From a virus: a stretch of DNA of 24,236 nt. Within the stretch, counting starts at the first letter, position 1. Each line of letters starts with the position of its first letter. Shown piece after piece: positions 2,299 to 17,713 of this stretch. Location: positions 1-24,236 of the IMG/VR virus record IMGVR_UViG_3300043436_000322; one strand, written 5' to 3'. The notes beneath the pieces were generated by a model. It worked only from the letters and a program-made list of their open reading frames with translations. It was not told the DNA's origin and ran no database searches. A program made the position numbers and the translations under genes.

Positions 2299-3027
2299 TT
2301 ACAGCACCCATCCTATATTATAATTATTAGTATCCGGATACATATCCCCATTACTATTCTGATTATACTCTGGGAATAGGTTATTATTAAAGCACAGATA
2401 ATCTATCATCCTTTCAGTATAGTGCTGTGCTATTTGTCTCTGCTTATCTATTAGCATATCTAGCTCAGCCTTCTCAATGTTTACAGCATTCTCTGAGCTA
2501 TGCTTAAATATACCTTTGTTAGCTATTGTATACGCTGAGAATGGCAGGTATTCTACCATAGCCCAGTGTATCAAACATGGCTTAACATAGGTATTCAATA
2601 GTGTTCTATAGTTGGTAGTGATACTATCAGCAGTAACCTCAATAGTACCTCCTGTACCTGGACTGCTTACTGTGAGTATATCACCTACTTTATATCCTGT
2701 ACCCGGAGTAGATATAGTAAATGTTAATATAGCACCACCGGATGTACCTGTAATGTTAATAATACATCCACTCCCTGAGCCCCCTGTAGTATTATGAAAT
2801 CCACTAGAGTATCCTGTACCTCCTGTAATTAATGATGCAGCAGTAACATTCCCTGCATTAGTTAGGATATCAGTTTTAAGTTTGTTAAATAACCTTGTAC
2901 CTAAGTAGTTCTGCATATGGATATCCTGTGCTACCTTAATCCACTGGATGAAGTTATCAGTATCTACGTTACCATTGGTAGCAGTGAACTTTACAAGGTC
3001 CTGTCTTGTTATAAATAGTGCCTCCAT
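2299..3027 (-). CDS. Head-completion/adaptor protein (DUF6712-type) with an inserted beta-rich domain
   Basis: A 242-residue protein. Residues 1-57 (MEALFITRQDLVKFT, then AQDIHMQNYLGTRLF) and about 138-242 (YRTLLNTYVKPCLIHWAMVE to MYPDTN...GWVL) together look like the DUF6712 family of Bacteroidota phages. This is a helical protein encoded next to the portal and thought to act in head completion. Between the halves, residues about 58-136 are a Gly/Thr/Ser-rich segment with two GTGY motifs (ITGGTGYSSG; TPGTGYKVGD), typical of beta-rich decoration or repeat domains in virion proteins. The family core as I know it joins these helices by a short loop. Its start overlaps the portal stop by 1 nt. 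Family call good; function of the insert unknown. Confidence 0.65.
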   Translation of the reverse strand: MEALFITRQDLVKFTATNGNVDTDNFIQWIKVAQDIHMQNYLGTRLFNKLKTDILTNAGNVTAASLITGGTGYSSGFHNTTGGSGSGCIINITGTSGGAILTFTISTPGTGYKVGDILTVSSPGTGGTIEVTADSITTNYRTLLNTYVKPCLIHWAMVEYLPFSAYTIANKGIFKHSSENAVNIEKAELDMLIDKQRQIAQHYTERMIDYLCFNNNLFPEYNQNSNGDMYPDTNNYNIGWVL

Positions 3028-4889
3028 TATCCTTTATAGTTTGGGTGATGTCCATTGTTCGGCATATCAATAGGCGGAGTATTAGCATCTCCTGAGCCTG
3101 CAGGATTCGGCATGTAGCTCTTAGGTATAGATGCTACCTGCTCAGATGAACTCAATGCCTTATCAGGCCGATATGTACCATCAGTATTCTTCTTTAATCT
3201 ATAGAGCTGCTCAGTCCAGTAATGACCACAATTTACCCCTCCTTTGAACTTGAATAAATCATATGGCTCTCCTTTGTGGCCTAACTGCTCATTAACTCCT
3301 GATCTACTAGCAGCATCTATATCCTCTAATCTATATACTACTCCATTAGCAGTACGTCTCATCATCTGCTGGCAGAACTCTCTGCTGTTTCCTTTGTTGT
3401 ATCTTTCAGAGTATCTGTAACGTACCTTATATACACTCTTATCTAGGTAGCTAAATCCGTTAGGGTTGCTCTTAATGAATGAACTTAACTTTTCTAGGAT
3501 AGTCTCCTTAGGCTTAATCATTCGAGTAGCCCACTCTTCTGTAGTATCATTCTTATCTGAATACTCTCTCTCATCTACTAGCTCCCATTCATCATCATCA
3601 TTGTGCTCTCCTTCCAGGATATCTAGTACCTCATTCAATACCTCATCAGATACATCCTCTTTCTTTAGAGCTATGGGTGCAGGTTTCAATCCTACTAATG
3701 CTCTAATCTCATCAGCAGTCATGGATTCTAGTACCCTGTTAGCTACTAATGGGCTCATCATATTGATAGCATCCGTAACTTTTGTAGCCTCATCTGTGGT
3801 AGTTAGATCACCCTGTGCATCTAATGGGTTTAATGTCTCAAAATATAGCTTTAATGCTATGCCATTATAGGCTAGTATCTTATCAAATGCATCTAGCATT
3901 ACCTCCTGTAGCGGAGTAATTACCATATTATTGAATAATATAGCACTGTTTTTTAGCTCATCTGCATTAGCAGAGAAGCCTGTAGTGGTAGCTATCCCGA
4001 ATAATAGCGGAGATGTTACGTTATGTCCTATGAGAATCTTTCTAACGCATTCCTCAGATAGGTATTTATACAGTTCAGGAGCCTGCTCTACAGGCATATT
4101 CTCTATGGTTGCTGCAGTTTCTTTAGATGTATTGAATGATATTACTACCTTATCCCCTTGTGGACCGGTTAGCTTATTATTAATATCACTCTTAATCATC
4201 TGCTGCTGCTCCTCAGATGGCACCCCATTATTAAAGTTAATGATAGTAGATGGGGAGAAATTACTTTTAACCAGGTTAATCATATAATCACTAGTCTGTT
4301 CCTCTAGTACTGTATATGGAAGTGCCCCTTGATAGTCTGGATAGGCATAGTATTTCATCCCCACAGAATATGGCTTAACGAACATGATCTCTATCTCATC
4401 CTTAGATGTACCGAATGCAGCGTATCTTTCAGGAGTATACTTCTTAACTTCTGCCCAGTTATCTGAGTAGTAGTATCCCATTATCTCTCCATCCTCATTA
4501 CATTTCTCAGCTCTTAATAAATGCACTGGGATATGATGAGCCTTAGCTATCTTTTTGTGGTCCTTTGTGTATAGTACCTGGATCGCGAACTGCCCTAACA
4601 TCTTAAAGTCAAGAGCCATTTTACGGATATCATCCTTCTCTAGCATTGACATCATTTGGGCATACTCATTAGGCTTATTTTTAGCATCTAATGCTTTTAG
4701 CCCCTTCCCATAAATTAACCGGGAGATGTTATTAATTACGGCTGAATTTGTGGTAGAATTGATATACCTATCCAGTAACCACTGGAAGTGCATATTATCC
4801 TCACCATACTCTACCCAGTCATTCTTTTTACTCTCCTTAATTACAGGAGCCTCATAGGCTGCTAGGTTAATTACATGAATGTTATCCAT
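3027..4889 (-). CDS. Portal protein with C-terminal extension
   Basis: The dodecameric ring at the head vertex through which DNA enters and leaves. It has 620 residues. The N-terminal 400 carry portal-like features: a conserved WVEYGEDNMHFQWLLDRY opening, the helix-rich stretch around TSDYMINLVKSNFSPSTIIN, and LFGIATTTGFSANADELKN with the helix that lines the tunnel. After an acidic low-complexity linker (about 426-450) comes a separate domain (about 470-565) with REFCQQM, VNEQLGHKGEPYDLFKF and GGVNCGHYW. This resembles the C-H-containing end of Mu gpF-like minor head proteins, often a separate gene. A Pro/Asn/His-rich tail closes it. It starts 1 nt after the preceding stop. The portal call is strong; the fusion is inferred. 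Confidence 0.8.
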   Translation of the reverse strand: MDNIHVINLAAYEAPVIKESKKNDWVEYGEDNMHFQWLLDRYINSTTNSAVINNISRLIYGKGLKALDAKNKPNEYAQMMSMLEKDDIRKMALDFKMLGQFAIQVLYTKDHKKIAKAHHIPVHLLRAEKCNEDGEIMGYYYSDNWAEVKKYTPERYAAFGTSKDEIEIMFVKPYSVGMKYYAYPDYQGALPYTVLEEQTSDYMINLVKSNFSPSTIINFNNGVPSEEQQQMIKSDINNKLTGPQGDKVVISFNTSKETAATIENMPVEQAPELYKYLSEECVRKILIGHNVTSPLLFGIATTTGFSANADELKNSAILFNNMVITPLQEVMLDAFDKILAYNGIALKLYFETLNPLDAQGDLTTTDEATKVTDAINMMSPLVANRVLESMTADEIRALVGLKPAPIALKKEDVSDEVLNEVLDILEGEHNDDDEWELVDEREYSDKNDTTEEWATRMIKPKETILEKLSSFIKSNPNGFSYLDKSVYKVRYRYSERYNKGNSREFCQQMMRRTANGVVYRLEDIDAASRSGVNEQLGHKGEPYDLFKFKGGVNCGHYWTEQLYRLKKNTDGTYRPDKALSSSEQVASIPKSYMPNPAGSGDANTPPIDMPNNGHHPNYKG

Positions 4890-4890
4890 A

Positions 4891-5232
4891 TTAGTACATT
4901 AAAAATTCATTATCATTAGGCACGCTAAATGATTTGTATCTATTTTGATTAGGAGTATAATCTGCAGGTACCTGATCAGTACAGAATATCCTATCTCTAT
5001 ATAACTCCACATCATTACTATCAAATATCACTAACCTATAATAGTGCCCCTCCTCTAAATCAAAAGTACCTCCTATCTCTAAAAAGTATTGTAAAGGTAT
5101 ATTACTAGATACATTAACATTAACATCTATATTAGTAGATTCATCAGTTAATATCATATAGTCAGGAGTACCCCCTGCTCTAAGTATGCATCTAACAGTT
5201 TGTGCAGTTTTGATTGTAGTTAGAACTATCAT
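4891..5232 (-). CDS. Small virion-associated protein upstream of the portal, unknown function
   Basis: A 113-residue protein starting MIVLTTIKTAQTVRC. I chose the ATG at 5232. A longer frame to 5304 would begin with GTG and run straight through the intrinsic terminator at 5265-5298, so that extension would not be on the downstream transcript. The protein is beta-rich (YFLEIGGTFDLEEGHYYRLV, then ELYRDRIFCTDQ) and ends in a flexible SVPNDNEFLMY tail. The ELYRDRIFCTDQ-type segment is familiar from Bacteroidota phage structural regions, but no function is known to me. Its stop lies 1 nt before the portal start, so the two are probably coupled. Confidence 0.7.
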   Translation of the reverse strand: MIVLTTIKTAQTVRCILRAGGTPDYMILTDESTNIDVNVNVSSNIPLQYFLEIGGTFDLEEGHYYRLVIFDSNDVELYRDRIFCTDQVPADYTPNQNRYKSFSVPNDNEFLMY

Positions 5233-5264
5233 ATTATTATAACTCACATTCTTAAAATATGTTT

Positions 5265-5298
5265 CTAAAAAGAAAAGCCCCACCATATAGGCAGGGCT
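5265..5298 (-). terminator. Intrinsic (Rho-independent) terminator after the tail-tube gene
   Basis: On the minus strand a 9-bp stem AGCCCTGCC / GGTGGGGCT (two G-U wobbles) closes a 5-nt TATAT loop. It is followed at once by TTTCTTTTTAG, a U-rich run. It starts 25 nt past the stop of the tail-tube-like gene and ends 33 nt before the next ATG. It is the clearest terminator in the window. It would end the transcript carrying scaffold, capsid and tube, with readthrough or a new promoter supplying portal and downstream genes. Confidence 0.87.
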
Positions 5299-5322
5299 CT
5301 TCACGCTATGTAGGATTAGTTA

Positions 5323-5916
5323 TTAGGTAGTAACTAATGTAGGTGATCCTAACAAAGTCAATAAATCAGATTCAGAATTGCAGTCAAGGAAGTTAGCAGG
5401 TTTCTCTTCCATAGCTTCAAACGTAAGTTTGTAACCATTGAAATCACCATAAGCTATACCACTCTCAATGCTTCCTGCAGTTGCATCACATCCTCTGTAA
5501 AGACCAGCTAAAAAGAATTGGTTACCATTAGTACGTACAATTACGTGAGGACGGCCATAAGCTAAAATCTTAAATTGCTTGTGGAAAACTGGATCTTGTC
5601 TCTTTAACTCAGCAGTAATAGTCTGAGTAAAGAAAGTAGTACCATTATCACGAGATGTGTTAACAGTTGTGTTAAATCCGTTTTGTCCTTTTAACTCATA
5701 CTTGTATACGAATGAAGTTACTGCAGGTGCAATAGGATTCAAAGTAATACCAGTAATTTGATCTTCAAAACCTACAGTAGTATCATATACTACATCCCCA
5801 CCTAATGTAGATGGATCAGGATCATAGCTACCGAAGTTAATTAGGTATAGAGCCTGGATACCAGAGATGCTATCCTTACATTGCTCAAGTCTACCATTTG
5901 CGATTAAACATGACAT
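5323..5916 (-). CDS. Probable tail tube protein (structural)
   Basis: A 197-residue virion protein. It opens with MSCLIANGRLEQCKDSISG; this Cys-x-I-x-x-G-R-x-x-x-CKD start is a recurrent feature of a Bacteroidota phage structural family usually placed as tail tube or major tail protein. The body is beta-rich with short polar loops. It ends with a Gly-Asp-Phe-Asn-Gly-Tyr strand and FEAMEEKPANFLDC. It follows the major capsid gene after a 58-nt leader that holds a stable hairpin, and a strong terminator sits right after it, so it appears to be expressed with the capsid at high level. A minor capsid or decoration protein is the main alternative. Confidence 0.55.
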   Translation of the reverse strand: MSCLIANGRLEQCKDSISGIQALYLINFGSYDPDPSTLGGDVVYDTTVGFEDQITGITLNPIAPAVTSFVYKYELKGQNGFNTTVNTSRDNGTTFFTQTITAELKRQDPVFHKQFKILAYGRPHVIVRTNGNQFFLAGLYRGCDATAGSIESGIAYGDFNGYKLTFEAMEEKPANFLDCNSESDLLTLLGSPTLVTT

Positions 5917-5935
5917 ATCTTTATTGTTTTATATA

Positions 5936-5957
5936 GGGGAGCAGTTACCCACTCCCC
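5936..5957 (-). promoter_or_regulatory. Stable leader hairpin between capsid and tube genes
   Basis: On the minus strand GGGGAGTGG / CTGCTCCCC forms a 9-bp stem (one U-G and one G-U wobble near the top) around a GTAA loop, which fits the GNRA tetraloop class. The following 20 nt are TATATAAAAC-like rather than a U-run, so this is unlikely to be a full terminator. It sits 20 nt upstream of the tube ATG. A role in mRNA processing or stability, or in tuning the capsid-to-tube ratio, is possible but inferred. Confidence 0.55.
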
Positions 5958-5974
5958 ATGATTATTACTATATA

Positions 5975-6940
5975 TTAGTTAGCAGAGTTAACAATACCGT
6001 AAGTAACGATATTTTCTACAGCACCATACTGAGCACCACCAGCCATACGCATGATTACACGTACATTTTGACTACCGTCGATGTCAGACATATCCAAAAC
6101 TTTAACTTCATTCAAATCCGAAAGCACAGATGTGCCGAAGAATAGGTTATCAGTAGTAGTTGCGATAGCAGTGTTAGCAGCTAATCCTGGAGCCCAGAAT
6201 ATCTCTACTCCATCAATGCTCAAAGATCCGTTAGAATACCACTGAGTAGATTGGTTGTTAACACCAGTTCCTGGAGTAACAGCAGCAGATGCACCTGATA
6301 CAGTAGAGAATCCACCTAATGCACGTACATACGCTTTAGCGATGTTAGTAGATACATAGATTCTTAAGTTAGGATTACCATAAAGAGCTGCAGGAATTGC
6401 ATCTACAATTTTACCCAATTCTACTACTACGTTCAAAGCAGTTACAGTAGTACCAGTTACCTCCTGTGCAGCAGGTAATAATGGATCAGTAGATACGATA
6501 GTAGAGATACCATTGAATGAACCAGAAGTACCTGTAGCACCTGTCCAGAATGCTGTCTCAACGTTAGCAGCAACTTTATCAGATGCATGAGCAATTAAGA
6601 AATCAGCAAAAGACTTAGGTAAAGTTTTGAAGTTAGAGAATCCCATCTCAGCAGCTTGCCATGTAGAGAAGAAATCTTTTTTACATAACTCTAGATTCAC
6701 CTGAAGATCTTTGGTAGTTAATACACGCTCAGTTAATGTAACTGTAGATACATCAGAGAATGCACAAGTAGCATCCTTTAAGATAGCATCAGTAGCTACC
6801 TTTTGAATAACTTGTTTGTAGTGTACGTTAGGTAGTACAGTTACTCCACCATTCTCAATGGTAGGAGCAGATAATAAAGCCGCAGATACATATTTCCCTG
6901 CGAACTCACCAGCATAAGTAGTTGTAATTGAAGTTGCCAT
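5975..6940 (-). CDS. Major capsid protein (HK97-like)
   Basis: The main shell subunit, 321 residues. It begins MATSITTTYAGEFAGKYVSA and is Ala/Thr/Val-rich, with a central helix region (ELCKKDFFSTWQAAEMGFSN at about 84-103). A P-domain-like segment follows with LRIYVSTNIAKAYVRALGG, then a C-terminal run EVKVLDMSDIDGSQNVRVIM and GAQYGAVENIVTYG. These match the family of capsid proteins in Bacteroidota siphoviruses. The preceding gene is a Glu/Ala-rich scaffold and the protease lies just upstream, the expected maturation partners. An A-run leader directly before the ATG suggests efficient translation. No decoration insertion is evident. Confidence 0.85.
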   Translation of the reverse strand: MATSITTTYAGEFAGKYVSAALLSAPTIENGGVTVLPNVHYKQVIQKVATDAILKDATCAFSDVSTVTLTERVLTTKDLQVNLELCKKDFFSTWQAAEMGFSNFKTLPKSFADFLIAHASDKVAANVETAFWTGATGTSGSFNGISTIVSTDPLLPAAQEVTGTTVTALNVVVELGKIVDAIPAALYGNPNLRIYVSTNIAKAYVRALGGFSTVSGASAAVTPGTGVNNQSTQWYSNGSLSIDGVEIFWAPGLAANTAIATTTDNLFFGTSVLSDLNEVKVLDMSDIDGSQNVRVIMRMAGGAQYGAVENIVTYGIVNSAN

Positions 6941-6957
6941 TTTTTTTTATTTTAATT
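6941..6957 (-). promoter_or_regulatory. A-rich translation leader of the capsid gene
   Basis: The 17 nt between the scaffold stop and the capsid ATG are almost pure A/T on the minus strand. They include an unbroken run of eight A immediately before the ATG. Bacteroidota initiate mostly without Shine-Dalgarno pairing and favour such A-rich leaders for strong expression. No purine SD motif is present. Confidence 0.45.
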
Positions 6958-7566
6958 TTAGTTAGCCAATTTATTTAGGATTCTATCCATAGTAGTCTCC
7001 TTTCTATTTGCACCAAATGTGAACTGTGGTGCAGCAGTTTGTTTTTCAGGGTTATGAGAGATAGGCTTAGCCGCTGGCTCTTCTACTACAGGAGCCTCTT
7101 CTACTACAGGCTGCTCAGATAGTTGTGCTTTCAAGCTCTCATTCTCTGCTTTTAACTCCTCAATTTTAGAGAATAACATCTCTTCGATTTGGGATTTAAT
7201 TACTTTCTTAGGTTGTGCAGGAGTACCCTCCTCAGCCATTTGCTCCTCCATCATTGGCTCCTCTGCTGCAGGCTCTTCTGCTACAGGTGCCTCCTCTTCT
7301 ACTTCAGGTGCCTCTTCCTCTTTCATCTTAATCTCAGCAATAACTCCCTCAGTAGCTACTACTAGGATTCTCTCATCCTCTAGCTCATACTCACCAACAG
7401 GTAAAGCGATTCGCTGCTCATCCTCAGTAACAATAAATACTTCCATACCTGGCTCGAATGCATCAGCCTCTAGTACAGTTACTCCATCCATTAACTTCAT
7501 GGATGCTAGCTCTACCTTCTCCATTCCGAGAAGTGCAGAGATACGTGATAAAATAGATTCTTTCAT
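6958..7566 (-). CDS. Probable capsid scaffolding protein
   Basis: A 202-residue internal assembly protein expected to template procapsid formation and then be removed. Residues 1-80 form a small beta-rich N-terminal part (VEVFIVTEDEQRIALPVGEY). Residues about 83-125 are a strongly acidic Glu/Ala/Pro low-complexity stretch. Residues about 128-148 form a predicted coiled coil (IEELKAENESLKAQLSEQ), followed by a second acidic Pro/Ala stretch. A basic C-terminus TTMDRILNKLAN is the sort of short helix that binds the capsid shell. It lies directly upstream of the major capsid gene, the canonical place. The start ATG at 7566 is preceded by an AT-only leader. Confidence 0.7.
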   Translation of the reverse strand: MKESILSRISALLGMEKVELASMKLMDGVTVLEADAFEPGMEVFIVTEDEQRIALPVGEYELEDERILVVATEGVIAEIKMKEEEAPEVEEEAPVAEEPAAEEPMMEEQMAEEGTPAQPKKVIKSQIEEMLFSKIEELKAENESLKAQLSEQPVVEEAPVVEEPAAKPISHNPEKQTAAPQFTFGANRKETTMDRILNKLAN

Positions 7567-7608
7567 ATTTTTTTATATATAACTCATTAATTATTTAGTT
7601 GTTCCATT

Positions 7609-7788
7609 TTAGTTAATCTGCCGCACCTGTATTATCTGAGTAATGTTACCCGGATTCTCAGTATTGATATCACCTATCCCCTGTGCAGGTAGTGTGCCAT
7701 CACAGCATTTAGCATTATAGGTACCATCCTTACATAGGCACCCTCTCTTTCCACCCTTAGGTGAGCTCTTTGATTCTTTACGTTTCAT
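7609..7788 (-). CDS. Small Cys-containing phage protein
   Basis: A 59-residue protein, MKRKESKSSPKGGKRGCLCK then DGTYNAKCCDG. The head is basic and glycine-rich. Four cysteines arranged C-x-C...CC form the compact motif CLCKDGTYNAKCCDG, and a polar tail NPGNITQIIQVRQIN follows. I recognise this motif as a recurring tiny protein in head regions of Bacteroidota phages, without a known function. Its start overlaps the stop of the 47-residue gene upstream (ATGA), so it is translated in series. The cysteines could bind metal or form disulfides. It is probably structural or packaged. Confidence 0.75.
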   Translation of the reverse strand: MKRKESKSSPKGGKRGCLCKDGTYNAKCCDGTLPAQGIGDINTENPGNITQIIQVRQIN

Positions 7789-7928
7789 TTTCCTTGTCCT
7801 TTATATAGTTTAAAATAATTCTTTGCCATCTTACTTCTAGATGCTTTGCATTTAGAGTGAATTCCTGGTCTCTTTCTCTTAGGCTTTCTCACGAATGAGA
7901 TACCTGTGGTAGCTTTAACCTTCGCCAT
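7785..7928 (-). CDS. Small highly basic phage protein
   Basis: A 47-residue protein, MAKVKATTGISFVRKPKRKR then PGIHSKCKAS, ending YFKLYKGQGK. About a third of the residues are Lys or Arg. The RKPKRKRPG core and SKNY/YKGQGK-like end recur in small proteins encoded in Bacteroidota phage head regions. It could bind DNA or an acidic partner such as the scaffold, but no function is established to my knowledge. The start overlaps the end of the protease gene by 14 nt, and the stop overlaps the next ATG. Both neighbours support it as real. Confidence 0.72.
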   Translation of the reverse strand: MAKVKATTGISFVRKPKRKRPGIHSKCKASRSKMAKNYFKLYKGQGK

Positions 7929-8829
7929 TTTCTTTTATTTTAGATTCTGCCCATGATAGTGCTGCCTTCCCTCCCCATAATAGGTAGGATATATACCCAC
8001 AGTCATTACTATCTCCCTGGTTATAATATACCTCAGCTCTTGATAGGTAGGAGTACATTCTCTTAATGGTTTCCATGCTCACCTTTTCACCATTAGCTAA
8101 CTGCTGAGCTCTAATCTTACCTACCTGAGTAGCACATTTATTGCCATTTCTCTCATTCAATAATATACCTCTCTGTGCATTCCTTCTCACTACAGATGGA
8201 TAGTCATTATAGCTCATCTCTTCCAGGTCTTGACCTTTGAGCACCTTCTTAATTTGCTCTATTAGGTATTCCTTTTCCTCATCCATAGCTTTACGCATAG
8301 CCATCTCCATGCTCATCTCATACTTATCTGCAAAGTATCCCTCAATAGAGAATCCCTTAACATCTCCATCCTTTACTTTTTTCCATACATCCGGATTATT
8401 CACCTTCATGCTGATCATCCACGTACCTTTAGGTAGGCTGAATCCATAGGCTGCACTCTTATCTTTCTCAGGATTATCAATGATCCATGATTCCACCACA
8501 GTCATTCCATCTATTTTAGCATCATGCTCATAGGTAGCAGCACTCTGGTTACTATTAATGAAAAACATCTCACTCGCTTTGCGTACTGTATCCTCTGAGA
8601 AGTAGATATAAAACTCCCCATGCTTCTCATTCTTACGATATATCTGCTTATTGGGGATCAATGCAGGCCCCATGAGTAGCTTTTTCTCCTTATCAATGGT
8701 AGCCAGCTCTATGCTTTGCTTGCTTAGTGCTATGAAGTTTTCCTCTATGGCAGGTTCATCTACTACAGATACCGCGTATACCCCCATCTCAGTATCCTTC
8801 TCATCTAAAATTAGTTCAATTATTTTCAT
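7915..8829 (-). CDS. Prohead maturation protease (XkdF-like) with C-terminal domain
   Basis: A 304-residue protein expected to cleave scaffold and capsid during head maturation. Residues 50-170 match the XkdF-like / Peptidase S78-type core: a conserved YEHDAKIDG (His102), VVESWIIDNPEKDKSAAYG, LPKGTWMISMKVNNPDVW and GDVKGFSIEGYF, with Ser161 the likely nucleophile. Catalytic roles are inferred from the family pattern. After a helical linker (about 170-205) comes a distinct domain with VVRRNAQRGI, VGKIRAQQLANGEKVS and WGGKAALSW, seen fused to proteases and elsewhere in phages and plasmids. The start shares one base with the tape-measure stop (TAATG). Confidence 0.78.
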   Translation of the reverse strand: MKIIELILDEKDTEMGVYAVSVVDEPAIEENFIALSKQSIELATIDKEKKLLMGPALIPNKQIYRKNEKHGEFYIYFSEDTVRKASEMFFINSNQSAATYEHDAKIDGMTVVESWIIDNPEKDKSAAYGFSLPKGTWMISMKVNNPDVWKKVKDGDVKGFSIEGYFADKYEMSMEMAMRKAMDEEKEYLIEQIKKVLKGQDLEEMSYNDYPSVVRRNAQRGILLNERNGNKCATQVGKIRAQQLANGEKVSMETIKRMYSYLSRAEVYYNQGDSNDCGYISYLLWGGKAALSWAESKIKENGEG

Positions 8830-11192
8830 TATAGTTGTGCGTTTGTTATTCTATTTCTATCTAATGCCTGTTGAGTAGATACCTCTGAGCCTACCACGTA
8901 TGCCTTAACAGGCTGCTGCTGTAATTGAGCTAACTGATTTAGCCCATTATTACCTACTACGTTAAAACTAGGTGCCATTACTCCACCTCCTGCACCTCCA
9001 CCTGTAGCCATACCTCCACCTGTACCTCCACCGCTAGGTGCATTACCTCCTCCTCCTATCTCTTTCAATGCCTTAGCTGTGGCTGCTACGTTGGCAGCTA
9101 TCCCTAATCCTAATGATATGTTATTAGCAGCGATAGTAGGAGCAGCAGTGATACCTCCTGATGCAATAGCCTGAGGAGTAGCTAATGCACCTAAGTTAGC
9201 TAGCTTATTAGCTATAACCATCTTAGCAATACCTGCAGCACTCTCTATAATCACTGCAGTTTTCTGTGCGGCTTTACTCTTACCTAGCGTATCCTTTAAT
9301 AAATTGGCAGCTTGTACAGCTATATCTGCATATTGGCTCTGTAGTGCTAACTTTTGCTCATACGCTGCCTCATCATCCTGTTTTATTTTATCATTAGTTG
9401 CCTTATTATCTGCAGCTAATCCATCCTGATATGCTTTCCAGTTATTTCTGGATGCAGTGGTAAATTGGTCAAAGGTAATTAACTCAGCATCTAAATTAGC
9501 CTGTAGTTCTATCTGCCCCTTACGATACGCTAGATTTTTAATGGCTGCCTCTTTATCTAGGCCTGCCTCCATAGCATCTATCTTAATCTGCTCACCTGCT
9601 AGGAATTGCTTAACAGATTCGCTATCCATCTCCTGCATTACCTTTAACTGGTCCTGCTCTCTTTTATTTAATGCATCTAATGCTAACTTATCATACTTAT
9701 CCTGGATAGCTCTACTTTCCTCTCCATGTTTTTTCTGTAGTTCAGCAGTATCTACTCCTGCTTTATCTGCTGCAGCATATAATGCCTCATACTGATCATC
9801 CAGTGCCTGTAATTCTTTCTGCTGTGCATCCGTTATCTTAGCTTTTCTCTGAGCCTCTAATGCATCTAGATACTCAGTCATAGACATATCAGCCTCTTTC
9901 TTATCTTTTTCCTGATTCTTATTAGATTCTTTTTTAATATCTCTGATCTCTAACTCAGCTCCATCTATCTCACTCTTTGTCTTAGCCAGTGCTGTTTTCA
10001 AAGCAGTTATTTCTGCATCTGATTCCTTAGCTATTCCCTCAGGATCGAAAATCATACTAGCTAATCCATCAGTAGCATATTCCCTAAACTCAGTCATGTA
10101 AGAATTTAAGGTCTTGAATTTAATCTCATCCTGCCCTAATGCTCTTAATCCTGCATTAATAGTTAGCATAGTAGCATCTACTAATCCTGCTAGCACTCTA
10201 AATGGCAGCATGATACCCTCTATCTCTAGAGTAAGATATGCCTCTAATAGTTCCTTATTTCTTTTAGCTGCAGCTACCTCTAGCTTTTTCTTATTCTCAG
10301 CTAGTTTAATATCCTCCTCCTGCTCCTTAGCTAATAGTCTTAGTTTACCTTGTCTTATTTTTAATATCTCCTTTTCACTCTTACCCTGTAGCCTTAAACT
10401 GTTCTCCTGAAGATCAAATAATTCTACTCCTTTCTCAGCTTGTTTTACCTGTGACTTAGATAAATCTACATTGTTCTGTAGCTCTTTACTTACTCCACCA
10501 ACAGCAGCTTTAATATCATCCCAATATGCTACTATGGTACCTAATGCTACCACTAATAAACCTATCCCAGTACCAGCTATAGCCCCCTTTACTCCGTTTA
10601 ATGATACCTTAGCAGCAGTACCCATTGTTTTGAATGATGCACCTGCAGTTACATTGGCTGCAGCCTGTGCCTCAGTAGCAGCTATATTGGCTGCTGTACT
10701 AACTGTTTGCTGAGTAGTTACTGCTGCATCTGCCTCCTTAGCTGCAGTTAATACTCCTAGCTTAACTAATGCATTAACTATACTGGCACCTAAATTCTTA
10801 AATGAATCTCTAGCCTCACCTAATGCATTTAATCCCTGCGATAGTGCCATAGCACTCTGCACCTTTAGCATCATCTTCTGCACCTCCTCACCCTCAGCTC
10901 CTACTAATCCCATAGCTCCCTGCACTGCAGAGAATCCACCTGCTACTCCTGTTAGGGATGCACCTAATGCTTTGAATTTAGCATCCGGATTATAGGCATC
11001 AGTTAATGCCTTAGCATCACCTATCCTATCCTTTAGATCAGCAGCTCTCTTGGCAGCTTCTATAGCTTGCTTAGATGTGGCACCATACTTATCTGCCAAA
11101 GTTTGTACCTCAGCCTGTGCCTCCTTTAGCTGTGCCTTTAAGCTCTTAGTATTATCCTTAACCTCTAAATTAACTGTTACTGTTTGTGCCAT
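8829..11192 (-). CDS. Tape measure protein
   Basis: Sets tail length and helps DNA delivery. It has 787 residues, which at about 0.15 nm per residue predicts a tail near 118 nm. The N-terminus (MAQTVTVNLEVKDNTKSLKA) leads into long helical, coiled-coil-prone sequence. An Ala-rich region and a hydrophobic segment around residues 205-225 (GTGIGLLVVALGTIVAYW) could insert in the host membrane. Further helices (IDGAELEIRDIKKESNKNQE) follow, then a Gly-rich stretch before the end. The C-terminal VKAYVVGSEVSTQQALDRN is typical of Bacteroidota phage tape measures. I see no peptidase motif. It lies immediately upstream of the protease, not next to its presumed chaperone. Confidence 0.88.
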   Translation of the reverse strand: MAQTVTVNLEVKDNTKSLKAQLKEAQAEVQTLADKYGATSKQAIEAAKRAADLKDRIGDAKALTDAYNPDAKFKALGASLTGVAGGFSAVQGAMGLVGAEGEEVQKMMLKVQSAMALSQGLNALGEARDSFKNLGASIVNALVKLGVLTAAKEADAAVTTQQTVSTAANIAATEAQAAANVTAGASFKTMGTAAKVSLNGVKGAIAGTGIGLLVVALGTIVAYWDDIKAAVGGVSKELQNNVDLSKSQVKQAEKGVELFDLQENSLRLQGKSEKEILKIRQGKLRLLAKEQEEDIKLAENKKKLEVAAAKRNKELLEAYLTLEIEGIMLPFRVLAGLVDATMLTINAGLRALGQDEIKFKTLNSYMTEFREYATDGLASMIFDPEGIAKESDAEITALKTALAKTKSEIDGAELEIRDIKKESNKNQEKDKKEADMSMTEYLDALEAQRKAKITDAQQKELQALDDQYEALYAAADKAGVDTAELQKKHGEESRAIQDKYDKLALDALNKREQDQLKVMQEMDSESVKQFLAGEQIKIDAMEAGLDKEAAIKNLAYRKGQIELQANLDAELITFDQFTTASRNNWKAYQDGLAADNKATNDKIKQDDEAAYEQKLALQSQYADIAVQAANLLKDTLGKSKAAQKTAVIIESAAGIAKMVIANKLANLGALATPQAIASGGITAAPTIAANNISLGLGIAANVAATAKALKEIGGGGNAPSGGGTGGGMATGGGAGGGVMAPSFNVVGNNGLNQLAQLQQQPVKAYVVGSEVSTQQALDRNRITNAQL

Positions 11193-11349
11193 TTCTTAGT
11201 GCTCGTTTCATATATAACTCACGCATGGCTTGTTTGTATACCCTCTTAGTTTTTGTCTCTATGGCATACTTACCCTTTGCTATTTCTATGAGCTCACTCT
11301 GCCCATAGTGTTCTGTGATGCTTAGCATCTGTATTATGTGATGTATCAT
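11170..11349 (-). CDS. Small basic protein before the tape measure, unknown
   Basis: A 59-codon gene, MIHHIIQMLSITEHYGQSEL then IEIAKGKYAIETKTKRVYKQ, ending MKRALRNGTNSNS. It fills the 160-nt interval between the large distal-tail gene (stop 3 nt upstream) and the tape measure, whose first 23 nt it overlaps. It is helical and net basic with no membrane segment. An alternative start is the Met at codon 8. In phages, small proteins just before the tape measure are often tail chaperones, but here a separate gene fits that role better. I recognise no family. Confidence 0.5.
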   Translation of the reverse strand: MIHHIIQMLSITEHYGQSELIEIAKGKYAIETKTKRVYKQAMRELYMKRALRNGTNSNS

Positions 11350-11352
11350 ATT

Positions 11353-13416
11353 CTAATCCTCTGGTAATGGCGGAATAATATCATCCGGGCTAACCGGCAT
11401 GAAGTCATTTAATAATCTTAGTGTAACCTCACCGCTCACCAGGTTACAATTCATATCATTAATAATGTATCTCTTATCTCTGATGATCACCCTATCATTT
11501 AACTTTAATCCTGTTAGCAGGGATATAGGTAGGATAGTCTTATAGGTAGTTAGCCTATTCTTTACATTATATAAATTAGCTAGATACTGATAGTAGTAAG
11601 TAGCGAATAAACTCTGCTGGATAGGATACAGATGGTAGGTAGAAGTCTCAGGTGCAAAATTGAGTGAATAATCCACATGAGCTAATGAGGTGAAATCCTG
11701 CCCAAACATGGTATAGTTGTGTTCTGATCTATTGCCTGTTACAGGATCTTTGTATCTAATATGTTTACTAAGATATCGTACTATGCTATACTTATATAGT
11801 ATCAATGGCTTAGGGATGTATGGGGCCAGTGAGCTGTTCACACAATATCCCACCTGTAGATCAGTACCTGTGAACTTATTAAACATCATATTCTCGAATG
11901 GTACCTCTATCACATATTCAGGACCATCATACGGATATTGGTAATCAGTATTCCCATACTCCTTACTCCACTGCTGAAAATAGTATTTATTCATAGCACT
12001 CTCAGATGTCTGATACTTGAATGCTATCCTCTTATATAATGGCACCTTAGCTACCTCAATGCTAGTAGCATCTGTATACCTGGTGATATCATACACATCC
12101 CCTGCTGCATACCAATCTAGTAATGGCTCTACTGTATACGTATCCACATCACTAGCTATACATACTAGGTTAAATTCTCTGAGTATCCCCCCAAAGAAAT
12201 CAGCTATCTTAATATCGGGAGCTGCACTGGCTAGGTTAGTTCCTGATACGAATGTTAATGTATTGGTAGTATACTGAAAATAATCCATCATGGTAGCCCC
12301 ATAGTACAGGAATGAATGATTCACGTACATATCAATGATAGATGCATTCTCAGTTCTTATCTTAAATGTATACGTCTCATCTAATCCATATACATTAGTG
12401 CTTAGTATATTCCCTGATACAGATAAATCTAATGCATCTATAGTGTTAAAAAATACCCCATTTCTATATACATCTATATACCATACTGTGCCAGGTACAG
12501 ATACTGAGATAGGAATGAAATCTATCTGATGATAAGATGCACCTGCACCTGGAAGATATACGAATCTAATACTATCATTTGTGAAATCCACATAGGGGCT
12601 CAAATCATAGTTAACAATTATAGAAGTATTCACCCCAGTGATATCTAAGCCTTGCGGAGCTGAGCTGAATGAAGGTACATTCTTATTCTTATACCATAGA
12701 TATGCAGCAGTGAATCTCTCATCTCCAAAGAAATTACTATTAAATGTGATAGCATATTTCTGCTCAATTAAATCCATGATCTTAGATATCCTAATAGCAG
12801 GGAATAATTCCGCCTTAGGATTAATAGCACCTGATGCATCATGGATATTGTTATTCGTTGTGGTAGATGTTACATAGTTAGGTAGTGTATACTGAGCTGC
12901 TGCTCCATCATACTCCCATAACCGGTTAGATGTAATCAGTGGCCACGCCACATCAGGATCAGGATATGTGCCATCTATCCTATCCACTATAGCATCCATA
13001 GTCCAGTCATGCTCATACGCTGAGTAGTTCAAATCCTTTAGCTTATCATCTCCGAATAGGTCTTTCAAGCTAGTGAGCTCACCATAGAATGTGATGGTAT
13101 AATTCTCTATCTTCCCATTGGTTAGAGTAGCTTTCTCTAGTGATATCCTTCCCTTTCTAAATGTGGTTAAATCTATCTCTATATAGCCATCCCTTCTGAG
13201 CCCATAATCTAAGGTGCCATCTACAGCATTCTCATAGAAGTGCTCAAATATCTGATTATTATTAGCACTACCTGGTACAGTGAATGACTGGCTCATATCA
13301 GTTTTAGTCTTACTGATATCGTATACATCCTGCACTGCAGATGTTACGTTAATCTGCTCATCATTGAATAGGTCCAGCTCTTGACCTTCTATGAATACTC
13401 TTACCTGTCTCTTCAT
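11353..13416 (-). CDS. Large distal-tail/baseplate-type structural protein
   Basis: A 687-residue virion protein. It opens MKRQVRVFIEGQELDLFNDE, followed by QDVYDISKTKTDMSQSFTVP, a start shared by a Bacteroidota phage tail family. The middle is beta-rich and aromatic (many Tyr/Phe/Asn). A conserved block at the C-terminus (ISLLTGLKLNDRVIIRDKRY, then VSGEVTLRLLNDF) resembles the module that closes hub or distal-tail proteins. It follows a 362-residue partner (1-nt gap) and precedes the tape measure, consistent with a tail-tip complex. The function is assigned by position and by family memory, so hub versus fibre-attachment protein remains open. Confidence 0.6.
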   Translation of the reverse strand: MKRQVRVFIEGQELDLFNDEQINVTSAVQDVYDISKTKTDMSQSFTVPGSANNNQIFEHFYENAVDGTLDYGLRRDGYIEIDLTTFRKGRISLEKATLTNGKIENYTITFYGELTSLKDLFGDDKLKDLNYSAYEHDWTMDAIVDRIDGTYPDPDVAWPLITSNRLWEYDGAAAQYTLPNYVTSTTTNNNIHDASGAINPKAELFPAIRISKIMDLIEQKYAITFNSNFFGDERFTAAYLWYKNKNVPSFSSAPQGLDITGVNTSIIVNYDLSPYVDFTNDSIRFVYLPGAGASYHQIDFIPISVSVPGTVWYIDVYRNGVFFNTIDALDLSVSGNILSTNVYGLDETYTFKIRTENASIIDMYVNHSFLYYGATMMDYFQYTTNTLTFVSGTNLASAAPDIKIADFFGGILREFNLVCIASDVDTYTVEPLLDWYAAGDVYDITRYTDATSIEVAKVPLYKRIAFKYQTSESAMNKYYFQQWSKEYGNTDYQYPYDGPEYVIEVPFENMMFNKFTGTDLQVGYCVNSSLAPYIPKPLILYKYSIVRYLSKHIRYKDPVTGNRSEHNYTMFGQDFTSLAHVDYSLNFAPETSTYHLYPIQQSLFATYYYQYLANLYNVKNRLTTYKTILPISLLTGLKLNDRVIIRDKRYIINDMNCNLVSGEVTLRLLNDFMPVSPDDIIPPLPED

Positions 13417-13417
13417 T

Positions 13418-14506
13418 TTAGATCACTGAATTGATAACATCAAATGCTAGCTCTATCTCTATAGAGTAGTTAATAGTTTTGTTATTGATATTTTTCTGCT
13501 TATTGATACTCTTAGTATTCACCTTTACAGGTATTCTCTTATTGCTATCCACCCATATAACTCTCTCACTGAGTAGGAGCTCCTGCATAGTTTCCCCATA
13601 GCTCTCATCTACCCATCCTGTATTAATGATATACTTACGTATTCCGTTATTATTGAATACTGCTCTCTGCCCCTCACTCAATGTCATAGGATAGATATCT
13701 GACATCATGAGATTATACGTAGTGCTATTCACATCTAACAGCTCCTGAGATGCCTTAAAGAAAAACTCTCTCTGCCATCCTCCGAACTTGTTTACAAAAT
13801 CAATAGTCATAGGAGTATATCTGCACTCTACCTTAGGCATGAATGTAGCCTCCCACTGCAGCACATTCAAATCATCATATATCTGCATCAGGTTACCTGC
13901 TCCATACCATGTAGAGAATACCCTGAATAGATCATATACTCCTGCAATACTATATGTGTGTGTCTGACCTAACCCTGTAATTAAATTCTTCCGATATACT
14001 TTCCAATCTTTACCCATATATGCAGTAACTATACCTGCTCTTTGTGAGCCAATGGATAGCGGAGTATTAGTTGAATCATACCAGTAGTAGTGCTTAGTTC
14101 CATTACCCAGTAGCACATCCCCTCTATCCACATTGGCTAAATCCTCATAGTATCCATATCCATCATAGCATCTAGCAGTAACCGTACTATCTAGGTAGTA
14201 AGTACCTCCGATTAGGTTATATGTTTTATACTGCACATAGGTATACTCATCATACTCAGTAAAATCATTAATCGTATTAAAGTTCATACCATTAAATTTA
14301 TGTCTGAGATACTCCCTTAAATATGGGCTAATGTTATACAGATTCTCAGTAACTCCTGTAGCAGGAATCAGCTTGCTTAGTGTATACGTTGGGGATGCAG
14401 GTACAGTGCTACCCCCATCATAGATGAATAGCTCTACCTTACTCCCAGTCTGAGATACATCATTAACTGGTACTATATATGGTGATCGTGCAAATATCCT
14501 TATCAT
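13418..14506 (-). CDS. Distal-tail structural protein, partner of the 687-residue protein
   Basis: A 362-residue protein with beta-rich, Tyr/Gly/Asn-rich sequence, starting MIRIFARSPYIVPVNDVSQ. Recognisable blocks are YNISPYLREYLRHKFNG, FGGWQREFFFKAS and GWVDESYGETMQELLLSERV. The last occurs in a family found beside the larger tail protein in related Bacteroidota phages. There is no signal peptide or membrane segment. Its start overlaps the tail-completion gene by 4 nt and its stop precedes the next gene by 1 nt, so it is co-translated with tail genes. The likely location is the tail tip or hub; there is no direct motif for enzymatic activity. Confidence 0.55.
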   Translation of the reverse strand: MIRIFARSPYIVPVNDVSQTGSKVELFIYDGGSTVPASPTYTLSKLIPATGVTENLYNISPYLREYLRHKFNGMNFNTINDFTEYDEYTYVQYKTYNLIGGTYYLDSTVTARCYDGYGYYEDLANVDRGDVLLGNGTKHYYWYDSTNTPLSIGSQRAGIVTAYMGKDWKVYRKNLITGLGQTHTYSIAGVYDLFRVFSTWYGAGNLMQIYDDLNVLQWEATFMPKVECRYTPMTIDFVNKFGGWQREFFFKASQELLDVNSTTYNLMMSDIYPMTLSEGQRAVFNNNGIRKYIINTGWVDESYGETMQELLLSERVIWVDSNKRIPVKVNTKSINKQKNINNKTINYSIEIELAFDVINSVI

Positions 14507-15021
14507 TTCTTTTTACTTATTTCTTTTAATGCCTGTGCTACTAGCTCCTCAACATCTAATCCGTACTTATCTATTAACTCAGTTGGTAGCTTTTTGTACG
14601 CCGATTCAAATGCCTTAGTAAAGAATAGGCTAGGCTTAATACCCTTCCGGAAGATACTCCTGGCTATCAGAAACTGCAGGCTCTTTCTTTTAATGAATTT
14701 ACCATCCTTATCTTTGGGAGCTATCCCCTTTCTGACTATCCATTTATCTAGCTTACTCATAGGGGGCATCTTATTCTTAAATGAGTATGGAGCTCCCCAT
14801 GATCTCTGAGTACCATTTACCCCCTTATCCTGGAATGCACCATACTGCTCCATCTCAAAATAGATACCTATGCTGTTAGGCATGGCCTTTACCTCACCAT
14901 CTATAGAGTTATACAGCTCACCTGAGCTTTTCTTACCCTGCTTAGTTAGGTTAGTTCTAGCCTGCTTTACTACATGGTCTCTAAATGCTTTGAGTGCCTT
15001 GTATGTCTCCTCTTGGTCCAT
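14503..15021 (-). CDS. Tail completion / head-tail joining protein (HK97 gp10-like)
   Basis: A 172-residue protein with the layout of HK97 gp10-type neck proteins. A basic helix (FRDHVVKQARTNLTKQGKKS) is followed by GELYNSIDGEVKAMPNSIGI, FEMEQYGAFQDKGVNG and a C-terminal helix (FFTKAFESAYKKL). The QYGAFQDKGVNG segment corresponds to the family's conserved Y-G-x-x-x-x-x-G core. It begins 1 nt after the stop of the preceding gene and overlaps the following one by 4 nt. The role is presumably to join tail tube to head connector or complete the neck. Confidence is moderate because the family is highly divergent. Confidence 0.65.
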   Translation of the reverse strand: MDQEETYKALKAFRDHVVKQARTNLTKQGKKSSGELYNSIDGEVKAMPNSIGIYFEMEQYGAFQDKGVNGTQRSWGAPYSFKNKMPPMSKLDKWIVRKGIAPKDKDGKFIKRKSLQFLIARSIFRKGIKPSLFFTKAFESAYKKLPTELIDKYGLDVEELVAQALKEISKKK

Positions 15022-15477
15022 CTAGCAGATAGTCATGTCATTAGGGCAGATAATATCTAAGGTCATAGCCCACCCTACCAGGTTATTCTCGAATCTCTCA
15101 GTAAATGGCTCACAGGTAGGTACATTCTCTACATGAAAATTAAGGTCATGCAGTGCCCCATGCAGTAACATCTGATAGGCTCTATTGAGAATCTGCAGTG
15201 TAGAATTCAATGCATCATTAGTGTTATCCTTTGTCTCCCATTTAGTATCATCCTCTACCTTTACAGCATCCACTATATCCATGCAGAATAAAGTAAGTGT
15301 GAATCTTTGGATGTTACTCTCGAACTGAGCCTGAGTTACCATAGTGTGTACCAATGGGAAGATAGTCTGCTTAGCTATATCTATATCAAAGATATCCCCA
15401 TTAGTAACTGTATTCACCAGTGCATCATTATCAAAATGATCCTTTAGTGCTTTTATTAGTGTGTAGTATCCGGTCAT
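15022..15477 (-). CDS. Probable tail terminator/completion protein
   Basis: A 151-residue protein, beginning MTGYYTLIKALKDHFDND. It contains DIFDIDIAKQTIFPLVHTMV, a pattern (GD-x-x-DID-x-x-K-x-x-x-FPLVH) recurrent in Bacteroidota phage tail regions. A beta-rich second half ends in FENNLVGWAMTLDIICPN. This alpha/beta layout and the place next to a gp10-like protein fit a tail terminator or minor tail protein. Its ATG overlaps the -1-frame stop (TGA, 15476-15474) of the upstream frameshift gene, forming ATGA. By contrast the 0-frame stop of that gene lies 16 nt before it. Confidence 0.6.
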   Translation of the reverse strand: MTGYYTLIKALKDHFDNDALVNTVTNGDIFDIDIAKQTIFPLVHTMVTQAQFESNIQRFTLTLFCMDIVDAVKVEDDTKWETKDNTNDALNSTLQILNRAYQMLLHGALHDLNFHVENVPTCEPFTERFENNLVGWAMTLDIICPNDMTIC

Positions 15478-16243
15478 GCTTTCTTAAATCTATTTAGTTC
15501 TCTTTGTTCAATTTCTGTTTTTTGTTTCTCGAAGGTGAGATAGGTGAGACATTGATGTAATCCGTATGCGGTAACTTCATCAAACTTTGTGATATCTCCT
15601 TTAGCGACTGCATATATGCTAGTATACCAGCCCCATTGTTTAGTAAACTGTCCTCTTTCAGAATAATCCTCCTCTGCCTTCTGCTCGGTTTCTGATTCAT
15701 CAGGCTCTCCAAATAGGACAGGGTAGAATTTAATAACTCGTTCCCTAAATGATAAAAAAAAACCCTAGCAGATATAGCTATCTCCATAGGCATATACTTC
15801 ATGAGCTCATGGTATTCCTCCCCTGCAGTGTATGGAGCTATCTCATACTTATCCTTACTCTTGTTAATGATGGGCCTGTACATCACAGCCATTGCTTTAT
15901 GGAATCCTTCCCAGTCATTGAGGTGATGTTCTAGATCTATATACTCACCCCATGAAATCTCTTCCAGGTTAGGAATGAATCCGAACTCCATCTCCTTTAA
16001 TTTGAACGTCTGATAGAACTGTGGCTTAACTGAAAATATCTTATTGAAATGCTCTACCAGGTTATTCATATCCTTTACCTTAATGGTAGCCACATCCTTC
16101 AAATCAATGCCGCAGAATATCTCAATCATCTTCTGAGCTATGAATTCCTCATCATTACTATTCTGCTGTACCTTTAGGAATTTCTGATAGTTCACTAATG
16201 GTATCTCTGCTATGCTCTCAGGTACGGTTAAATCTAGTTTCAT
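15474..16243 (-). CDS. Tail-assembly-chaperone-like protein, -1 frameshift product
   Basis: Reading codons 1-163 in frame 0 and then slipping back one base at the run of nine T (15762-15754) gives a 256-residue product. The shared part contains LEEISWGEYIDLEHHLNDWE, AVMYRPI and YHELMKYMPMEIAISARVFF, a pattern like tail or baseplate assembly chaperones. The -1 extension starts LSFRERVIKFYPVLFG, has an acidic linker GEPDESETEQKAEED, then KQWGWYTSIYAVAKGDITKF and CLTYLTFEKQKTEIEQ, and ends at TGA 15476-15474. The WGWYTSIYAVAKGDI block looks like genuine conserved protein, and the stop forms an ATGA overlap with the next gene. Programmed ribosomal slippage, polymerase slippage or a homopolymer length error could all explain it. 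Confidence 0.62.
15494..16243 (-). CDS. Tail-assembly-chaperone-like protein, 0-frame product
   Basis: Without slippage the gene gives 249 residues, MKLDLTVPESIAEIPLVNYQ onward. It continues past the T9 run as FYHLGNELLNSTLSYLESLM. The early part of this extension could be a real helix. The last 50 residues (RRQRRIILKEDSLLNNG to SPSRNKKQKLNKEN) read like out-of-frame translation of the WGWYTSIY region. Tail chaperone genes of phages such as lambda make a short and a frameshifted long product in a fixed ratio; here the short form is unusually long. It starts right after the 53-residue gene, whose stop overlaps its ATG. Confidence 0.55.
   Translation of the reverse strand: MKLDLTVPESIAEIPLVNYQKFLKVQQNSNDEEFIAQKMIEIFCGIDLKDVATIKVKDMNNLVEHFNKIFSVKPQFYQTFKLKEMEFGFIPNLEEISWGEYIDLEHHLNDWEGFHKAMAVMYRPIINKSKDKYEIAPYTAGEEYHELMKYMPMEIAISARVFFYHLGNELLNSTLSYLESLMNQKPSRRQRRIILKEDSLLNNGAGILAYMQSLKEISQSLMKLPHTDYINVSPISPSRNKKQKLNKEN
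15754..15763 (-). promoter_or_regulatory. Candidate slippery site for -1 frameshift (T9 run)
   Basis: On the minus strand the codons read GTT TTT TTT TAT: nine consecutive T after a G, containing the slippery heptamer T TTT TTT in the correct frame. Tandem re-pairing by -1 keeps full anticodon matches. Long T/A runs also cause RNA polymerase slippage. I did not find a convincing stimulatory hairpin by eye in the following bases, which favours simple slippage at the homopolymer or a sequence error over a classical pseudoknot-driven event. Confidence 0.55.
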
Positions 16244-16401
16244 TTTCTTTCATTCATTACATGATGATAGGCAGCTCTTAACATCTCAAAGTGCTCACTG
16301 AATCTCCTTACATTATTAAATTCAATACGCACCTTCTTGCCTGTCTTATCCAGGATATATGCCTGCACCACCACTATCATTTCATTGAGATCATTAGTCA
16401 T
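16240..16401 (-). CDS. Small protein between large terminase and tail chaperone, unknown
   Basis: A 53-codon gene, MTNDLNEMIVVVQAYILDKT then GKKVRIEFNNVRRFSEHFEM, ending YHHVMNERK. Its stop overlaps the next start (ATGA), so translation is coupled to the tail-chaperone-like gene. It is an alpha/beta peptide with a basic C-terminal helix and no membrane segment. It occupies most of the 261-nt interval after the large terminase; the other 103 nt upstream are an AT-rich leader with no clear -33/-7 promoter. No family recognised. Confidence 0.6.
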   Translation of the reverse strand: MTNDLNEMIVVVQAYILDKTGKKVRIEFNNVRRFSEHFEMLRAAYHHVMNERK

Positions 16402-16504
16402 ATCTTAATAACTCAATTCTGCGACATTTGTACTATGCATTTCTATATCCTTGTATATCACTGCTTTATCATTGGTTAGTTAAATAATTACTTTAAGTTA
16501 TCTA

Positions 16505-17713
16505 TTATATTATATAGTATTTTCCTTTATTTGGATTTTCGAGCTGATAAGAAATAGCGTATCTAATAGCATCCAGTGCATGATTCCATTTATCTATTGG
16601 AGTCTTACTCTTTTGAGATAGCCAGCAGTAGTTATTCAATTCCTTAATTAGCTCTATGCTACCCTCATCTATTATTAGATCATAATCCTGCATCAGGCTG
16701 ATACCATAGCTCACACTATCTGGTCCCTTAATGGCAGGCACCACGTTGCACCCCATAGCATTTAGCTCAGTGATTAGACGTGGCTCAGCACTATCACCTA
16801 TGATTAGGTTAGCTCCTGCTTTGCTCTTATTGATATCAGCTATCATGGAGGTAGTTAATCCCTTCTCATACAGGTGCAGCCTTAGGTATATTTTCTTATT
16901 GCCTCTATCTATGGAAGTCTCTACTAAGGTAGTAGGATCCTGTGAGAATCCGTAATCCTGCCCGAATACCACAGAGCCCATGTTCTGAAATAAGCCAATG
17001 GACCAGTTAGAGAATATCACTCCCTCTGCTTTATCTAGCCATCCCCCTAGAATTGAATGCTGGTACTTATCAGGCCTCCTCTCTCTCATGATGTTCACCT
17101 CATCTAAGAATGACTGTGGAAGATTCTCTATGTTATCCTGGTACGTTGTATGCACATAGCAAGTATCCCCATGCTCCCCATTTGTACCGGGCTGCACTCC
17201 TCTATCCTCAAAGAATCTCCTGTATATCCAGTGCTCTTTTGTGGATGGGTTGAGGATGAGCACTACCCTGTTATCCTGTTTACTGCTTCGGATGGATAGG
17301 TTAATCTTATCGAATGTGTTTTCCTCTATGAGCTCCTCTGCTTCATCCACTATCCAGGTAGTGATTCCCTGTAATGATTTTAGGTTAGCTGTTTGGTCAC
17401 CTGATGAGGTCTTAATACCTCTGAATATAATCTCACTGCCTGATGTCTTATTAACTATCTCACTCTTTGTTATCTCGAAATGGGCCTCTAATCCCATGAG
17501 CTCTATCTTCTCTTTGAATTCGGGGATGATGGATATATGGGCTGATGTCATTGTTTGCCGGGTGAATAGAATCTTATGCCCATGCTCAAATGATAGCAGG
17601 CATACCCATGCTGCCACACTAAATGATTTAGAGCTACCCCTACCTCCTGTAATTACGTAGTACCTACAATCGGATGCAAATAATCTATTATACTTCGAGC
17701 TTAGGCGAATCAT
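16505..17713 (-). CDS. terL: Terminase large subunit
   Basis: The packaging motor ATPase and nuclease that cuts concatemers and pumps DNA through the portal. It has 402 residues, typical of the compact PBSX/SPP1-like (Terminase_3) class. Walker A is GGRGSSKS (23-30), Walker B is WIVDEAEE (120-127) with the catalytic Glu, and the coupling motif is LILNPST (152-158). The RNase-H-like nuclease acidic residues are visible as GQDYG (Asp253), GDSAEP (Asp307) and HALDAIRYA (Asp381). All key residues are present. Its start overlaps the end of the small terminase by 26 nt, so the two are coupled. There is no inserted intein or frame break. Confidence 0.95.
   Translation of the reverse strand: MIRLSSKYNRLFASDCRYYVITGGRGSSKSFSVAAWVCLLSFEHGHKILFTRQTMTSAHISIIPEFKEKIELMGLEAHFEITKSEIVNKTSGSEIIFRGIKTSSGDQTANLKSLQGITTWIVDEAEELIEENTFDKINLSIRSSKQDNRVVLILNPSTKEHWIYRRFFEDRGVQPGTNGEHGDTCYVHTTYQDNIENLPQSFLDEVNIMRERRPDKYQHSILGGWLDKAEGVIFSNWSIGLFQNMGSVVFGQDYGFSQDPTTLVETSIDRGNKKIYLRLHLYEKGLTTSMIADINKSKAGANLIIGDSAEPRLITELNAMGCNVVPAIKGPDSVSYGISLMQDYDLIIDEGSIELIKELNNYCWLSQKSKTPIDKWNHALDAIRYAISYQLENPNKGKYYII

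Follow-up and report, generated by a model that had tools for sequence, protein, structure and literature searches.

One gene in the tail module of a 24-kb virus record (24,236 nt, analysed at its full length and called the window here) would, in the reading we favour, yield two proteins: both would begin with a common N-terminal domain of 163 residues and end in one of two near-equal, dual-coded C-termini, with RNA polymerase slippage at a run of nine T giving access to the second, so that the pair would resemble gpG/gpGT of phage lambda. From the comparison of homologous sequences we put the probability of this reading at roughly 0.6. The broader proposition, that programmed RNA polymerase slippage at T9–T11 serves a widespread group of Bacteroidota phages to produce a tail-assembly protein pair with C-termini dual-coded over 55–90 codons, is in our estimate only slightly better than an even bet. 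Frame changes in phage tail chaperones are textbook ribosomal frameshifting with a short alternative tail. In the searchable literature we found no phage tail chaperone described as a product of transcriptional slippage, and none whose tail is dual-coded. The hundreds of natural homologues described below combine a long dual-coded overlap with a T run whose conserved length suggests slipping by the polymerase, and they make two questions testable: whether the same two-isoform output is reached via transcriptional rather than translational recoding, and what role a second selected C-terminus has in tail assembly.

The nine-T run and its conservation

The gene occupies 16243–15474 on the minus strand (Table 1). 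In the 0 frame the codons across the run are GTT TTT TTT TAT, giving the peptide VFFYHLGNELL..., and in the -1 frame the peptide becomes VFF-LSFRERVIKFYPVLFG... and ends at a TGA (15476–15474) that forms an ATGA overlap with the start codon of the next gene at 15477. The earlier note had described the run with its coordinates and frame, the lengths of the two products (249 and 256 aa) and the ATGA junction, and all of these were found correct on re-reading. In a predicted model the shared domain is helical with two beta hairpins (pLDDT mostly 85–96), and the 0-frame ORF matches the PHROG profile phrog_32199 (E=2.6e-12) over residues 4–171, reaching eight residues beyond the slip. A second profile, phrog_38404, was matched by the -1 extension in 15 of 50 relatives; PHROGs also splits the gene, with phrog_32199 as the 0-frame part and, apparently, phrog_38404 as the -1 part.

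Table 1. Features of the frameshift gene and its neighbours in the window.
Feature	Position	Strand	Remarks
0-frame ORF	15494..16243	-	249 aa; shared N-terminal domain plus 0-frame C-tail
Shared N-terminal domain	15755..16243	-	163 codons, in both products
Slippery T9 (U9 in the mRNA)	15754..15762	-	-1 register via one extra U or tandem slip on U UUU UUU
-1 frame extension	15474..15755	-	93 codons + TGA; fused product 256 aa; helical (model)
0-frame C-tail	15497..15754	-	86 codons, dual-coded with the -1 extension, judged by synonymous suppression and openness tests
TAG stop, third (+1) frame	15745..15747	-	three codons past the run
Next gene, phrog_30964	15022..15477	-	151 aa; ATGA overlap with the -1 stop; order kept in L164 and P12024L
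Terminase large subunit	16505..17713	-	upstream; conserved neighbour of the frameshift gene
Tail tape measure protein, predicted	8829..11192	-	787 aa; phrog_24676, E=7.8e-22; downstream, four genes between

Only two A/T runs of nine occur in the whole window, and 5 of 100 shuffles contained at least two T9 matches; by itself the run is mildly unusual, and its significance comes from conservation among homologues rather than from its presence alone. The sole other run of nine, an A9 at 6938–6948 (minus strand), runs into the ATG of a 321-aa gene (AAAAAAAAATG) with an A-rich start region.

Homologues were collected by scanning viral contigs five times and genome contigs once, with peptide patterns that avoid the slip site, which gave more than 300 loci. 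After filtering, 323 loci with a readable junction remained, and these form 97 clusters at <70% protein identity; as some contigs were fetched more than once, the number of clusters is the more reliable figure, and cluster counts are not tree-corrected (the synonymous tests below use non-overlapping pairs). A run of at least nine T stands at the junction in 323/323 loci (97 clusters), the successive scans giving 166/166 for the first ones and then 95/95 and 80/80. Near relatives (n=80, 60–97% identity) have T9 in every case, including four independently assembled contigs 95–97% identical to the window (L002–L005), and in distant relatives the run is 9, 10 or 11 T long. Among these distant relatives, all loci that could be tested (83/83 and 174/174) have their N and C parts in the -1 relation, and an in-frame or +1 relation was never found. 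The cultured Nonlabens phages P12024L and P12024S carry T9ATCATTTAGGGAACGA, letter-identical to the window, at a protein identity of ~25%, and the same T run, -1 relation and layout recur in a prophage (L348) within a 3.9-Mb chromosome contig from the family of the Flavobacterium MAG's genome. The -1 extension is conserved (WGWY...CLTYLTFEK), which supports the earlier claim that it is real protein.

Some sequencing methods are prone to errors at runs of nine T, and the gene might then truly be a single frame interrupted by a sequencing or assembly error. This is refuted, since hundreds of independent assemblies show the identical run and the -1 relation, as do two cultured phages and the prophage; moreover, the loci with T10 retain the -1 relation and the 0-frame tail is under selection (see below). 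The error that the earlier note wished to see excluded is thus excluded, and we leave it practically no weight. Another possibility is phase variation, in which slippage during DNA replication at the T run would switch between two genomic forms. A long homopolymer within a gene is the classic layout of a contingency locus, yet switching should show both forms, and all tested loci are -1: direct fusion of the two frames occurs in none of the 323 loci with a readable junction. We therefore reject phase variation as very improbable. The comparison across loci supports a programmed frame transition at the T run and shows that the run is not a sequencing error.

The earlier note had proposed looking for homologues of the -1 extension in one continuous protein. 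None directly fused was found; a 218-aa single-frame ORF in a bacterial genome (L351, G042:C36) matches the -1 extension domain weakly (E=3e-4) and gave no PHROG match. It is possibly an in-frame relative made without a frame change, and we set it aside rather than count it as evidence. In single loci one frame is broken and close relatives are intact (L007 and L115, with -1 extensions of 41 and 45 codons, and L242, with a 0-frame tail of 7); these may be errors or decay. In the cultured phages the frameshift gene is annotated as two hypothetical proteins, gp40/gp41 of P12024L (L082:9001-9695) and gp38/gp39 of P12024S (L083:9001-9695). Gene callers overlook the fused product, since they either record a single frame or, as in P12024L, divide the gene in two.

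Coding in the overlap of the two frames

The earlier note had dismissed the 0-frame tail as shadow translation, which proved wrong. Synonymous change in the -1 frame is less than half as frequent in the overlap as in either the N region or the downstream gene, the latter two agreeing with each other; the suppression amounts to 2–4 fold as long as the 0 frame is open, and the rate rises again past the 0-frame stop. One clade serves as an internal control: its 0 frame stops ~55 codons into an 84-codon extension, and the suppression eases past that stop. For 50 independent pairs, change at fourfold sites stood at 71/949 in the overlap. It was higher both past the 0-frame stop (29/155; p=5e-5) and in the N region (482/1837; p=7e-36), and the window clade gave 82/692 versus 234/972 (p=2e-10). 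The most constrained stretch is the first 16 codons past the run, with 1 fourfold change in 197 in the internal-control clade.

Openness was assessed by holding the -1 protein fixed and redrawing its synonymous codons. The median length of the open 0 frame past the run is 56 codons over the 97 clusters, compared with an expected median of 12 (P=0.001 for the window). One could suppose that only the -1 product matters and that the 0 frame is kept open so that translation reaches the next gene; the 0-frame stop is indeed often close to the next start, and the length of the tail varies between clades, from 7 to about 101 codons. However, suppression at fourfold sites is undiminished when only those that could not create a 0-frame stop are counted (65/772 in the overlap, 25/116 past the stop, 338/1256 in the N region; p=3e-26 and 9e-5). 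Since suppression is equal where no stop is possible, it is the amino acids that are kept and not openness alone. RNA pairing is not the cause either: none was detected downstream of the run in 60 representatives (mean z -0.07), and with a mean z about 0 it was discarded both as a source of the synonymous constraint and as a stimulator of frameshifting. We consider it unlikely that the -1 product alone matters.

Predicted models are helical for both frames of the overlap. As judged from the substitution patterns, the 0-frame tail is shown to be a real protein segment, with both frames of the overlap under purifying selection, and because the suppression of synonymous change in the -1 frame eases past the 0-frame stop, 55–90 codons are truly dual-coding. 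The alignment of homologous loci suggested in the earlier note thus finds the run kept throughout and both frames selected. Short 0-frame tails do occur (16–25 codons in the Nonlabens group, about 7 in L242), and a long 0-frame tail is neither universal nor everywhere indispensable.

The third frame was also looked at. Over all loci the +1 frame usually ends within four codons of the run, at TTTAG; 80 of the 97 clusters have this stop at codon index 2 or 3. Since it ends so early, a transcript short of one U would yield little beyond the shared domain. We do not claim a functional third product ending at the +1-frame TAG, because a TTA leucine codon in the 0 frame and an AGR arginine codon in the -1 frame together force TTTAG; the stop may simply follow from the two proteins encoded there.

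Slippage on the run: polymerase or ribosome

What is conserved at the junction is the length of the run. T runs occur in three phases, and in each a length of at least nine is kept through compensation: with u and v the number of T before and after the in-frame heptamer, u+v is never below 2, and v is at least 2 in 9/9 clusters with u=0 versus 8/88 of the others (Fisher p=1.7e-8). Elsewhere in these loci such runs are scarce. In 458 other ORFs (315 kb), runs of at least nine T numbered 0 with 8.1 expected, T8 runs 2 with 13.5 expected, and runs of at least nine A 7 with 27.2 expected; selection in these genomes thus acts against long runs. In E. coli and Buchnera, transcript insertions are mostly of one nucleotide and grow exponentially with the length of an A/T run (PMC5574713), and IS elements use runs of nine A for slippage (PMC1088944).

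The main rival is ribosomal -1 frameshifting on U UUU UUU, with the amino acids encoded in the two frames accounting for the flanking T. Every locus does contain this heptamer in frame, as it must, since any run of at least nine T includes one; the neighbouring codons mostly specify V/L/I on the 5' side and Y/W on the 3' side, and each of these contributes T; and tail chaperones widely use -1 frameshifting for which stimulators are dispensable (PMC5009743). Yet seven T would be enough for the ribosome, and no locus has 7 or 8. In addition, loci with G/A/S/D/N before the heptamer carry extra T after it (p=1.7e-8), and the avoidance of T runs in other genes is graded by length, strongest at eight or more. 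Stimulators are missing as well: besides the lack of RNA pairing already noted, Shine-Dalgarno-like sites upstream of the run are depleted, not enriched, which removes a Shine-Dalgarno stimulator from consideration. As tail chaperone frameshifting can work without stimulators (PMC5009743), their absence is weak evidence on the mechanism. In one account (PMC8710568), Flavobacterium johnsoniae, a member of the Bacteroidia, is described as seldom using Shine-Dalgarno sequences, and such scarce use may favour a non-ribosomal solution. We regard the ribosomal explanation as possible and the less likely of the two mechanisms.

Programmed transcriptional slippage adding one extra U is the mechanism that the sequences favour, and we think it probable, because the conserved feature is a run length of at least nine rather than a heptamer, runs of at least nine T are absent from the other ORFs, and no stimulator was detected. 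RNA polymerase would slip on the run, and a fraction of transcripts would gain one U (U10). As one added U leads to exactly the -1 frame, U10 transcripts would give the -1 product by ordinary translation, and unslipped transcripts would give the 0-frame product. Transcriptional and ribosomal slippage can both act at one site (PMC5009743), and the two may act together here.

Tail-module context and comparison with known systems

In the window and in P12024L the frameshift gene belongs to the tail module and lies upstream of a predicted tape measure gene. The order TerL, frameshift gene, phrog_30964, phrog_29822, phrog_35281 is conserved in the window, in P12024L and in a Flavobacterium MAG, and in the first two it continues with phrog_38559 and then the tape measure gene; the prophage has the same ORF layout as the window. 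As the earlier note had remarked, the gene is distant from the tape measure gene, with four genes intervening in the window, unlike the usual chaperone synteny in which the two are adjacent. The overall arrangement at 3027–17713 (minus strand) is unusual, running from the terminase through the frameshift gene, tail genes, tape measure gene, protease and head-like proteins to the portal, which comes last. An ORF of ~53 codons at about 16400–16240 lies between the terminase and the frameshift gene and overlaps the start of the latter in an ATGA.

The earlier description of the gene as tail-chaperone-like holds in part. Its position in the tail module and its conserved -1 extension speak for it; on the other side, no tail chaperone family was matched in Pfam, PHROGs or NCBIfam, and sequence and fold searches of the PDB gave no match. 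Among viral folds, the matches to proteins annotated as tail assembly chaperones are weak (E=0.41 and 1.7). Gp10 of Flavobacterium phage 6H, also a viral fold match (E=3.4e-4), was set aside, as it has no long T run and its frame structure is ambiguous. By analogy, the gene probably has the role of the tail chaperones gpG/gpGT in lambda. The tape measure protein would be covered by many copies of the shared domain, the tail tube protein would be brought in through the -1 extension, and the dual-coded 0-frame tail would provide a second, selected C-terminus for the other isoform.

Like lambda gpG/gpGT, the locus is a tail-module gene with a shared N-terminal domain, a C-terminal extension reached by a -1 shift on a slippery run near the end of that domain, and two implied isoforms. 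It differs in that neither a sequence nor a fold match between the two was found, in that the gene is not next to the tape measure gene, and in that a run of at least nine T is conserved and not merely a heptamer. Furthermore, the 0 frame runs on for 55–101 dual-coded codons in most relatives, making the isoforms near-equal; lambda has no such dual-coded 0-frame tail. The IS transposases and Thermus dnaX share a conserved A/T run of at least nine, mixed mRNA and products in two frames (PMC1088944, PMC5009743). There, slippage enters an early stop or a partly overlapping ORF, whereas both frames are selected for tens of codons in the present gene, which moreover belongs to a phage tail module. 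In P3N-PIPO of potyviruses, polymerase slippage likewise opens an overlapping, dual-coded frame and an alternative C-terminus (PMC5009743); that case concerns a plant RNA virus, an RNA-dependent RNA polymerase and a protein with another role. The direct homologues are gp40/gp41 and gp38/gp39 of the cultured Nonlabens phages, in which the 0-frame tail is only 25 codons long and there is little dual coding.
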